A stretch of DNA of 42,511 nucleotides. Origin: Solobacterium sp. Lineage in GTDB: Bacteria; Bacillota_I; Bacilli_A; Erysipelotrichales; Erysipelotrichaceae. A program made the translations under genes and the position numbers. The first letter of the stretch is position 1. Each line of letters starts with the position of its first letter. This document shows positions 25,117-32,405 of the stretch, one piece after another. Where the stretch lies: assembly GCA_022486935.1 (NCBI GenBank), contig JAKVJO010000006.1:1-42511 (forward strand). The letters run 5' to 3'. Below the pieces are notes generated by a model. That model worked only from the letters and a program-made list of their open reading frames with translations. It searched no databases and was not told where the DNA came from.

Positions 25117-26298
25117 TCAGTGGTGGAACAGACGGATGCCGCAGAATGCCATGACAATACCGTACTTGTCACAGGTTTCAATGACCTGATCATCACGGAT
25201 GGAACCGCCCGGTTCCACAATGGCAGTCACGCCGCTGCGGTGTGCACGCTCAATATTGTCGCCGAATGGGAAGAAGGCATCAGAGCCCAGTGCCACACCG
25301 GTTACCTGGCTCAGCCATGCTTTCTTTTCTTCTGCAGTTAACGGAGCCGGCTGTGCCTTGAAGGTATTCTGCCAGACATCGTTGCCGATCGCATCTTCCG
25401 GGGTATCGCCAAGATAGACATCAATGGCATTGTCACGGTCCGGACGTTTGATATCATCACGGAACGGCAGGTTCAGTACTTTCGGCATATGGCGCAGCTG
25501 CCAGTGATCTGCTTTTTCTCCGGCAAGACGTGTGCAGTGGATCCGGCTCTGCTGGCCAGCCCCGACACCGATGGTCTGACCATCCTGTACATAGCAGACA
25601 CTGTTGGACTGGGTATACTTCAGCACGATCAGGCTCATGACAAGATCCTGTTTCTGCTGTTCGCTGAGAGTCTTGTTGGCAGTCACGATATTCTGAAGCA
25701 TGGTGGTCTCGTTGATCTCAAGATCCTGGCGGCCCTGTTCAAAGGTGACTCCGTAAACCGTACGGCGTTCAATCGGATCCGGTACATACTCCGGGTCAAT
25801 CTGGACAACATTGTAGCCGCCCTTCTTCTTTGCCTTCAGAATCTCCAGGGCATCCGCATCATAGCCCGGGGCAATGACACCGTCAGAGACTTCTTTCTTG
25901 ATCAGCAGTGCAGTGGAACGGTCGCATACATCTGAAAGTGCAATCCAGTCGCCAAAGGAAGACATGCGGTCAGCGCCGCGTGCTCTTGCATAGGCACATG
26001 CCAGCGGGGACAGTTCCATCTCTGAATCCAGATGATACATCTGTCTCAGTGTCTCATCCAGCGGATTGCCGACTGCTGCACCGGCCGGGGAAACATGCTT
26101 GAAACTGGCAGCGGACGGTTTGCCCAGTGCCTTCTTCAGATCCCTGACCAGCTGATAGCTGTTGAACGCATCCAGAAAGTTGATATAGCCCGGACGTCCG
26201 TTGAGAATCGTAACCGGAAGTTCAGATCCGTCTGCCATGAAAATCCTGGCCGGCTTCTGATTTGGATTGGTGCCGTACTTCAGTTGAAATTCGTTCAT
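25117..26298 (-). CDS. Stand-alone AICAR transformylase (PurH C-terminal domain type)
   Basis: A 393-residue AICAR formyltransferase, transferring a formyl group from 10-formyl-THF to AICAR to make FAICAR. It corresponds to the C-terminal part of bifunctional PurH and lacks the N-terminal IMP cyclohydrolase domain. Key segments are SFKHVSPAGAAVG, which holds the catalytic Lys-His, GVGAGQQSR, and GSDAFFPFGDNIE near the end. The neighbouring gene supplies the cyclohydrolase. I used the ATG at 26298, ten bases after GGAGG; a TTG two codons earlier is also possible. It follows the purO stop directly, suggesting coupling. Confidence 0.92.
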   Translation of the reverse strand: MNEFQLKYGTNPNQKPARIFMADGSELPVTILNGRPGYINFLDAFNSYQLVRDLKKALGKPSAASFKHVSPAGAAVGNPLDETLRQMYHLDSEMELSPLACAYARARGADRMSSFGDWIALSDVCDRSTALLIKKEVSDGVIAPGYDADALEILKAKKKGGYNVVQIDPEYVPDPIERRTVYGVTFEQGRQDLEINETTMLQNIVTANKTLSEQQKQDLVMSLIVLKYTQSNSVCYVQDGQTIGVGAGQQSRIHCTRLAGEKADHWQLRHMPKVLNLPFRDDIKRPDRDNAIDVYLGDTPEDAIGNDVWQNTFKAQPAPLTAEEKKAWLSQVTGVALGSDAFFPFGDNIERAHRSGVTAIVEPGGSIRDDQVIETCDKYGIVMAFCGIRLFHH

Positions 26299-26304
26299 CG
26301 TCAA

Positions 26305-27042
26305 TCATTCCTCCGTCTTCTGATACTTGTTGATGATCACATCTTCAAAGCTGCCATCACTCAGTGTAATTGCCCTGACAAACAGGCTGACTTTGTTATC
26401 TTCATTCAATGCCTTGAACAGTTCTGCAGCGTAGGCATGCGGATCACTTTCATTGACTGCGACCTTGATCGGTTCACCGGCAAAGCTTGGAATCGGACTG
26501 CCGTTTTTCTCATAGGTGGTAATCAGGTGGCCTTCTCCAATCAGCGGCTCCGGATAGTCAAATGTCTGCTGTTCCATGCTGGCTTCGTTCAGCTCATTGC
26601 TCTTGAGGATGCCGAGCTTGTAAGAGCCGGTATGCATATCCACAACACCGGAGATCCGCGGCGTGTAGTTCGGTGCATCATCTTCAAAGCGTCTTCCAGA
26701 CAGTGCTGCTTCAAAGGCATAGCCCGGGAAGCGGTTCTCTTCAATATACTCATAGATCGTATCAGTCTGATTGCCGTTGGTGACAATCGTCGTGTCATTG
26801 ATCGTACGCACTGCATTGTAGATAATCAGATGCGGATCTTCCATCTTGGAAGGATCTGCAGCGACGGTGCGGATTCCGCTGCCGTCTTCCAGTGTTTCAA
26901 ACACCCGGTTGCGGCTGTTGGCACTGCGGCCCATGATCCAGTAGGCGATCATTGCCTTTGTTCCGTCTGAAGAAAGTCCGATGCAGATACCGCGTCCTGG
27001 ATACTCATTGCCTGAGAGATACTTGAACAGATTCTTCTTCAT
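26305..27042 (-). CDS. purO: PurO-type IMP cyclohydrolase
   Basis: A 245-residue protein of the IMP cyclohydrolase family first known from archaeal PurO, which closes FAICAR to IMP. Visible family features are the N-terminal YLSGNEYPGRGI, IAYWIMGRSANSRNRVF, DPHLIIYNA and the central PNYTPRISGVVD. No ATP-grasp or methylglyoxal-synthase-like domain is present, so it is unrelated to the PurH N-terminal domain. It lies between purN (12-base gap) and the stand-alone AICAR transformylase, exactly where it replaces the missing half of PurH. Such bacterial PurO genes are known in some Bacillota. Confidence 0.9.
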   Translation of the reverse strand: MKKNLFKYLSGNEYPGRGICIGLSSDGTKAMIAYWIMGRSANSRNRVFETLEDGSGIRTVAADPSKMEDPHLIIYNAVRTINDTTIVTNGNQTDTIYEYIEENRFPGYAFEAALSGRRFEDDAPNYTPRISGVVDMHTGSYKLGILKSNELNEASMEQQTFDYPEPLIGEGHLITTYEKNGSPIPSFAGEPIKVAVNESDPHAYAAELFKALNEDNKVSLFVRAITLSDGSFEDVIINKYQKTEE

Positions 27043-30984: not shown

Positions 30985-31491
30985 TCAGAGTTCGGTTGCT
31001 TCCAGACTGACTGCCTGATCCTTTTTGGCGATTGCTTCTGCGGTATCCTTGCGGAACTGAATCAGTTTTTCTGACAGTTCTACGTTGCCCAGTGCAAGAA
31101 TGGAAATTGCCAGATATGCCGCATTCTTGGCACCGTTGATGGCAACGGTTGCGACTGGATAGCCAGATGGCATCTGGACTGTTGCCAGCAGTGCGTCAAG
31201 TCCATCGCATGCCCCGCCCTTCATGGGAATGCCGATGACCGGCAGGATGCTGTTTGCCGCAAATGCTCCGGCAAGATGCGCTGCCATGCCGGCTGCACAG
31301 ATAATGACGCCATAGCCATTCTTCTGTGCGTCCTTTGCAAATGCTGCTGCGGCTTCCGGTGTACGGTGAGCGGAAATCACATGTGCCTCAAATGGAACAT
31401 TGAACTGTTTCAGTACGGTACAGGCCCCCTTGACGGTTGGCCAGTCGCTGTCGGAACCCATAATCACTGCAACTTTTTTGATTTCACTCAT
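30985..31491 (-). CDS. purE: PurE-type AIR/N5-CAIR carboxylase or mutase
   Basis: A 168-residue PurE with the conserved [15 protein letters not shown] and AGMAAHLAG...LPVIGIP segments, which shape the AIR site. PurE class I needs PurK to make N5-CAIR, while class II carboxylates AIR directly. No purK gene is in this operon, so either PurK is elsewhere or this is a direct carboxylase. I used the ATG at 31491, preceded by AAGGAC, because the longer reading frame (to 31584) runs back through an intrinsic terminator. It is the first gene of the pur operon and sits behind a structured leader. Confidence 0.94.
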
Positions 31492-31511
31492 CGTCCTTGT
31501 CCTTTCAAACG

Positions 31512-31543
31512 AAAAAAAGCGCAGTGCCCTGAAGGTACCGCGC
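31512..31543 (-). terminator. Intrinsic terminator inside the purE leader
   Basis: On the minus strand GCGCGGTACC and GGCACTGCGC pair over ten bases with one mismatch around a TTCAG loop, followed by seven T. It stands 20 bases before the purE ATG, within the transcribed leader, which is the layout of an attenuator. Confidence 0.85.
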
Positions 31544-31675
31544 CTATTGTGCAGATACTCTGCTCCCCTGAAGAGGTGCAGCAAATCCGTCCATGCAAAT
31601 TAGAGACGCCAAATGGTCTGTTTGATACAAAGCGTTCACCAGTCATCATTGGTCTTTGCATGGCATTAGTCTATA
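31544..31675 (-). promoter_or_regulatory. Structured leader and promoter of the pur operon
   Basis: A putative -10 TATAGA lies at 31670-31675 on the minus strand; the -35 (TTGTTT at 31691-31696, spacing 15) is weak. From the predicted start near 31663 the RNA begins with CCATGCAAA, which pairs perfectly over nine bases with TTTGCATGG (31591-31599). Inside this stem a competing helix of ATGCAAAG with CTTTGTAT and a small ACCA/TGGT hairpin are possible. A second hairpin spans 31560-31581, then comes the terminator. The layout suggests a riboswitch or other attenuation device for purine synthesis, but I could not match it to a known class. Confidence 0.5.
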
Positions 31676-31782
31676 GCCCTGCAAGGTAAAAAACAAGCAG
31701 TAAACAAATGAAAATATGCTGTAAGCAATGAAACATTGTTGAATGCTTCACGAGGCGAACGATGTATCCGCTTTCGGGCTGA

Positions 31783-32405
31783 TTATCTTGGCCCGTGACC
31801 GCCGCCGGGACCGCCCATTCCGCCACGTCCCCGACCGCCATTGCCAGGGCCGCCCATTCTTCCGCCACCCATGTTGCGTCCGCCGCCGCGGGGCATTCCC
31901 ATGCCGGGACCCGGACCGAAGCCCGGTGTTCTCATCGGCGGTACATAGTGAGGTCTTGGCCGTGAGAAGATCGGAATGAATATCGGCAGGATCCGTTCCG
32001 TCGGACGTACCGGCGTGTCATTGATCGTATAGCCGTCCGGCTGGAAGTAGCGCACATTGCCAGCCGGATCATAGACCGCAATCCGCATGTTGTAGCTGGC
32101 CAGCAGTTTGGCAGTCTCAATGGCATTCTCTTCCGGAATATCGTTATAGAGATACGCCGGCAGTGACTTCAGAATGGAAGTCGCATCACTCGGGGTGAGA
32201 TTCAGTGCATTCTCCAGACTATGCAGGCATTGAACTCACTTCCTGCATAGTCTACCAGCACGACATCCCACGCCTGCTGGGCTGAGGATGATACGGTAGT
32301 GGATACTTCATTCGCTGTCTGATTCAGTGGGTAGCCGCAGTGCGGGCAGGATACTGCCTGGTCGGAAATACTTGCGCCGCATTCAGGGCATTTGATCATA
32401 GCCAT
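31783..32405 (-). pseudogene. Zinc-ribbon / L7/L12-C-like protein with Gly-rich tail, split by a -1 frameshift
   Basis: The ATG at 32405 (AAGGAG upstream) opens a zinc ribbon with Cys6, Cys9, Cys20 and Cys23 (CPECG, CPHCG), a Ser/Thr linker and the start of a domain beginning [10 protein letters not shown]. This frame stops at 32202. In the -1 frame the protein continues without interruption as [20 protein letters not shown] and onward to 31783. Read together, this part resembles the ribosomal L7/L12 C-terminal fold that often follows a zinc ribbon in Bacillota. The tail of about 50 residues is Gly/Arg/Pro-rich, with RGG-like repeats. The shift falls within a 12-base inverted repeat. It may be a real mutation, a sequencing error or programmed frameshifting. 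Confidence 0.6.
32216..32253. repeat. 12-base perfect inverted repeat at the frameshift site
   Basis: AGACTATGCAGG (32216-32227) and CCTGCATAGTCT (32242-32253) are perfect complements around a 14-base spacer, inside the zinc-ribbon gene and exactly where its reading frame breaks. Confidence 0.9.

Follow-up and report, generated by a model that had tools for sequence, protein, structure and literature searches.

The leader of the pur operon in the window (the whole 42,511-nt stretch of a Solobacterium sp. contig analysed here) is one of a set of purE leaders that combine a short open reading frame (ORF) with a putative RNA-polymerase pause signal and an intrinsic terminator. In its relatives this architecture is well supported statistically; the window's own leader is an atypical member, with a weak Shine-Dalgarno (SD) sequence, no stop codon at the terminator arm and a weak match to the pause signal. 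We give roughly even chances to the idea that the design is a translation-coupled attenuator of pur transcription, similar to that of E. coli pyrBI but serving purines.

The operon lies on the minus strand, from 31491 down to 20043, in the order purE-purC-purF-purM-purN-purO-like-purH(formyltransferase)-purD-purL, with purE (30985..31491) as its first gene. The two final steps of IMP synthesis fall to separate genes at 25117-27042, one for a PurO-like IMP cyclohydrolase, which scores 68 bits and thus under its curated cut-off of 150, and one for an AICAR formyltransferase. Between purE and rlmH there is also a minus-strand ORF of 101 aa (31783-32088) with a Gly/Arg/Met-rich tail, GMPRGGGRNMGGGRMGGPGNGGRGRGGMGGPGGGHGPR; it has no counterpart between rlmH and purE at L034, the locus that carries the closest relative of the window's purE.

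Ahead of purE, a promoter can be read from the sequence on the minus strand (31668..31696), consisting of a -35 hexamer TTGTTT (31696-31691), a 17-nt spacer and a -10 hexamer TAGACT (31673-31668), with a predicted transcription start near 31661. Downstream is an intrinsic terminator, the putative attenuator (31512..31545, minus strand), which reads AGGCGCGGTACC-TTCA-GGGCACTGCGCTT followed by U7; its hairpin (31545-31517) is worth about -16 kcal/mol, and the U tract runs to 31512, 20 nt short of the purE ATG, as the original prediction had it. Promoter, terminator and the start region AATGCCATGC all persist in the L034 leader: both hexamers and the sequence ...TAGACTAATGCCATGC are the same, with a different spacer, and the terminator is kept as GCGCGGTACCTT..AGGCACTGCG. 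Gemmiger leaders are similar in this respect, the window's GCGCGGTACC..GGCACTGCGC resembling their GCGCAGTGTACC..GCACTGCGC. The distance from terminator to purE has a median of 30 nt among the relatives' leaders, and a gap of only ~20-30 nt cannot accommodate a second promoter, so that pur mRNA made from the promoter at 31668..31696 must cross the terminator. Control of the pur operon by attenuation is supported by these three features, namely a conserved terminator, a promoter upstream of it and no space for another.

The original prediction had also argued for attenuation, on the strength of two mutually exclusive helices, and here the comparison with relatives upholds the outcome but not the switch. 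The predicted structures can all be found on the minus strand: a perfect 9-bp closing stem of CCAUGCAAA (31663-31655) with UUUGCAUGG (31599-31591), an 8-bp helix that competes for the same 5' strand (AUGCAAAG, 31661-31654, with CUUUGUAU, 31632-31625, including one G-U), and a second hairpin, CUGC-CC...GG-GCAG, in the predicted fold of CUGCACCUCUUCAGGGGAGCAG (31581-31560). One could imagine an unrecognised riboswitch or other RNA switch that toggles between stem and helix, considering that both coexist with a terminator in the window and that a 9-bp helix is uncommon for this 5' strand, being reached in 0.7% of shuffles. However, in a comparison of two sequences, the window and L034, the 9-bp stem is absent from the latter, the longest helix of the same strand there being 5 bp, a length that shuffles reach as well; the whole-leader fold is barely better than chance (z -1.8, equalled by 13/200 shuffles); and no Rfam family matches. 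We rejected the two-helix switch on these grounds and consider an RNA switch of this kind distinctly unlikely. At the level of sequence, the terminator is conserved and the competing helices are not.

Known riboswitches fare no better. A covariance-model search of the window with Rfam 15, as the original prediction had proposed, found zero families at gathering score, including the purine (RF00167) and ZMP-ZTP (RF01750) riboswitches, the latter without a match even at E<=10 in a 401-nt stretch, and none at relaxed thresholds either, which bears out the earlier judgement that the leader is unlike either class. The likeness to ZTP RNAs once seen in TGACTGGTGAAC and GGGGAGC has been dropped, since this cue is not conserved in L034 and obtains no model score. 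Members of the same family do carry riboswitches ahead of purE, of the ZTP class in L006, L011, L020 and L169 and of the purine class in L022, and these are likewise terminator-type controls at the same position, whereas most leaders of the genus, like that of the window, fit neither model. This suggests that the family's riboswitches and leader-ORF devices are interchangeable controls at purE.

The window comes from a metagenome-assembled genome (MAG) of the Erysipelotrichaceae, and its purE shares only 51-63% identity with the other purE of its own genus, versus up to 80% with that of Gemmiger. Its sole close relative is that of L034/L114, 80% identical (the protein differs at 20% of residues). 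In a purE tree, the window and L034 neighbour Gemmiger and not the genus's own purE; the tree covers purE only, and as one very long branch (L023) distorts its midpoint root we used neighbourhood alone. The pur operon of this MAG and that of L034 thus look to have been acquired horizontally from a Gemmiger-like member of the Oscillospirales, judging from these sequences. Considering this affinity of purE and the Gemmiger-like terminator, leaders from two source pools were compared, the Erysipelotrichaceae and the Oscillospirales.

The alignment of purE leaders from relatives, another proposal of the original prediction, confirmed the terminator, did not uphold the helices and revealed instead the design of ORF, putative pause and terminator. 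Some 300 leaders were compared, and counts come from non-redundant sets of 38 Erysipelotrichaceae and 97 Oscillospirales, which are redundancy-filtered but phylogenetically dependent, with many from MAG contigs. In the window's genus and in the Oscillospirales, the common design has an SD-led ORF of 20-43 codons whose stop coincides with the terminator's 5' arm; among the genus's own leaders most show it, at some 30-40 codons. Requiring an SD match of at least 4, an ATG or GTG start, at least 14 codons and a stop between -10 and +15 nt from the arm, such an ORF is present in 21/38 Erysipelotrichaceae leaders, against 1.9±1.4 (maximum 5) in dinucleotide shuffles, and in 43/97 from the Oscillospirales, against 3.5±1.9 (maximum 8). 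When the anchor is shifted at least 45 nt upstream, only 0-2 cases remain. The offset from stop to arm has a median of -1 nt (interquartile range -4 to +3.5), on ORFs mostly selected within ±20 nt, so that the real spread is wider. In L034, for example, the ORF starts with GTG behind the SD GAAGG and after 33 codons ends in a TAA 2 nt ahead of the arm; that of Gemmiger leader L052, like the window's, passes through its terminator.

Is the ORF read for its peptide? Across 16 pairs of leaders, differences fall evenly on codon positions 1, 2 and 3 (87/89/99), without third-position bias, and 136 non-synonymous codon changes stand beside 48 synonymous ones; the peptides are poorly conserved and belong to no NCBIfam or Pfam family. 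With so weak a coding signal, the case for translation rests on the SD and the placement of the stop, from which we infer that the ORFs are translated. Neither amino-acid enrichment nor codon runs were found in them, and the upstream RNA shows no excess of pairing with the terminator arm that could denote an antiterminator (z -1.3); an amino-acid attenuator of the trp or his type was rejected on both counts. The missing enrichment and codon runs also speak against the possibility that what the ORF monitors is translation capacity, the amino-acid supply or the formylation of initiator tRNA, a slower ribosome then lowering pur expression. Such a sensor would have the same anatomy, and the B. subtilis leader-peptide attenuators bmrB, tlrB and vmlR do answer to translation inhibitors, yet the genes downstream belong to purine synthesis in every case, and we regard this explanation as unlikely.

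Around the leader start, one sub-clade of the genus (L005, L009, L016, L116, L119, L121, L123, L128, L129 and L131) shares an element, GTCGGG..GAAAGGATGGAGCTATGGCGTCTGTTGTTATGACTCTCCAGACA, in a region extending 75 nt upstream and 45 nt downstream of the start codon. Its UGGAG can pair with CUCCA, which would place the AUG in a hairpin loop; the element is not in Rfam, and may control translation of the leader.

The second component emerged from an expectation-maximisation (EM) motif search without prior in the 75 nt upstream of the terminator arm. The consensus is GG[G/C]N-TTTT-TGC[G/A]C, i.e. GG-N2-T5-G-C-R, with a log-likelihood of 145.8 versus 61.7±3.4 for shuffles, and it lies at a median of 31 nt upstream of the arm. 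Held-out folds score 6.6 as opposed to 3.35 on the reverse complement (p=3e-7), and a motif trained on either group and applied to the other outscores shuffled sequences, with z of 4.4 and 5.7; a run on the Erysipelotrichaceae alone gave a different consensus. Strong sites have GC followed by G (32 sites) or A (14 sites), never by a pyrimidine. The simpler pattern GGN6TGYR, first spotted by eye in part of the same leader set, occurs in 37/82 leaders, with 8.6 expected from shuffles.

The element is spread evenly over the three frames of the ORF (25/25/22), and this speaks against the notion that a nascent arrest peptide, in the style of TnaC or SpeFL, responds to a purine metabolite by halting its ribosome on reaching the terminator. 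Some clades do share GISASKF, GTLAPK or RAGVFSSAD near the stop codon; but with a conserved element indifferent to frame, weak purifying selection on codons and no peptide family, we rejected a TnaC-type device, and find an arrest peptide quite improbable.

What the element resembles is a pause site. The elemental pause consensus has G at -10, a pyrimidine at -1 and G at +1, and for NusG of the B. subtilis type a T-rich motif at -11..-6 comes on top (PMC12288461). The leader element is a putative match to this consensus; in strict register its T tract would fall at -7..-3, off the NusG positions unless the RNA 3' end lies 4 nt further on. NusG of three of the genomes (G000, G009 and G058) reads VVRNTPGV, in which, by alignment, we take NT to be the pro-pausing residues N81/T82. 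Polymerase would probably pause at these sites, and for a time that may depend on the incoming nucleotide.

Several controls address whether the design could arise trivially. GGN6TGYR is found in 13/172 gene-end terminators of the same loci whose arm is touched by a stop codon, against 35/82 leaders, in 91/692 (13%) of coding windows and in 10/82 windows further upstream. A class-level control of 80 purE leaders from the Clostridia, collected after the pause motif was fixed, contained 41 terminators, of which 5 had an ORF at the arm (1.4 in shuffles) and 0/41 a pause-motif score of at least 8. Some of those 5 ORF matches resemble ordinary gene ends. Taken together, the gene-end, coding and Clostridia controls indicate that the design is neither an artefact of the pipeline nor a general trait of purE leaders.

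How does the window's own copy compare? Its candidate ORF (31488..31649, minus strand, starts at 31649 or 31646) crosses the terminator, without a stop at the arm, and ends in a TGA that overlaps the purE ATG (ATGA). In a gap-free alignment the ATG at 31646 falls on the GTG with which the L034 ORF begins; the ribosome site is weak (AAAGA). There are two pause candidates on the minus strand: GGATTTGCTGC followed by A (31577..31588), which fits GGN6TGYR and would put the 3' end at 31578, and AGAGTATCTGC followed by A (31550..31561), the window's best site for the motif learned from relatives, at a score of 5.9 versus 10-14 in strong members. The latter continues into ACAAT, as does its equivalent in L034 (GGGCAGTATGC followed by ACAAT), and is adjoined upstream by the hairpin at 31581-31560, a candidate pause hairpin of which L034 has a similar version, CUGCUCCUUUUCAAGGGCAG. 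The window copy may work in the manner of pyrBI, with the ORF running through the terminator, or may be partly decayed after transfer. In a stronger form of the latter explanation, the device decayed after acquisition from a Gemmiger-like donor and the terminator merely sets a constant basal level. The grouping of the window's purE with Gemmiger and not with its own genus would fit, as would the weak SD, lost stop and weak pause, but the window and L034 agree closely in promoter, terminator and start region despite the 20% divergence of their purE proteins. We hold such decay to be improbable; even this weaker copy may still function.

We propose the following mechanism for a translation-coupled attenuator. 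Transcription would start near 31661 and a ribosome would load on the short leader ORF, while polymerase, tens of bases ahead of the terminator, would meet the GG..TTTTTGC-purine pause, at which GTP or ATP is the incoming nucleotide. With purines in ample supply, polymerase would leave fast, stay ahead of the ribosome and terminate; with purines scarce, the longer pause would let the ribosome catch up at the end of the ORF, blocking the terminator hairpin so that pur is transcribed. In the window's variant, a ribosome passing through the terminator to the purE ATG would prevent the hairpin. That purine shortage lengthens the pause we infer from the next nucleotide being a purine; the generic pause consensus likewise has a purine at +1, and purine sensing, which the leader may perform, does not follow from that base. 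Polymerase of B. subtilis usually leaves its ribosomes behind (runaway transcription, according to the passage of PMC9226507 that cites it), and coupling would then have to come from the pause, which would explain the need for a programmed one. Going further, the leaders of the Oscillospirales and of one Erysipelotrichaceae genus could form a purine sensor free of aptamer, protein and peptide, in which pausing at GG..TTTTTGC before a purine gauges GTP/ATP and recruits the trailing ribosome, which then keeps the pur terminator open; this we hold tentatively, at somewhat below even chances.

The leader ORF of pyrBI runs through its terminator. With E. coli pyrBI (and pyrE) the pur leaders share an ORF extending up to the terminator or through it (as in the counts above, L034 and the window), a proposed block of the terminator by the ribosome itself with no antiterminator helix, and an operon that makes the nucleotide which would be sensed. 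Nucleotide-sensitive pausing upstream would be a further likeness; the pause element there is strongly enriched in the relatives and weak in the window. They differ in that the operon is for purines and in Firmicutes, the pause is GG..T5GC before a purine instead of a U-rich cluster, and most of the ORFs end at the arm. In E. coli a stop codon a few bp ahead of a terminator represses termination under coupled translation; the classical example is pyrBI, whose attenuator owes its steepness to pausing, by the ascription given there (PMC4824070). Closer in phylogeny, B. subtilis tlrB, vmlR and bmrB also combine a Firmicutes leader ORF with an intrinsic terminator, and NusG-linked pausing occurs in the tlrB and vmlR leaders (PMC12288461, PMC9226507, PMC4191407); however, these rely on drug-stalled ribosomes and alternative RNA stems ahead of resistance genes, whereas the pur leaders precede a biosynthetic operon and have no antiterminator excess. 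Open-access literature on purE or purine leader peptides and purine-operon pausing held no description of such a purine operon, and a group of purE leaders with overlapping ORF, pause signal and terminator is apparently undescribed.

The proposal makes a sharp prediction, namely that readthrough depends on the leader start codon, the distance from stop to arm and the pause bases, and it is testable, as these leaders also occur in cultured species such as Faecalibacterium prausnitzii (L071) and Gemmiger (L041, L082). If true, it would represent a pyrBI-like circuit with local coupling in a member of the Firmicutes, and translation-coupled attenuation of a housekeeping operon in bacteria whose polymerase is believed to leave the ribosomes behind, the programmed pause supplying the coupling. 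A search for PurR of the B. subtilis type in the window's genus returned nothing credible, with weak matches only, in long unrelated frames. The mechanism would thus account for purine control in abundant gut bacteria that apparently lack PurR, as checked in this genus, and often lack riboswitches as well.
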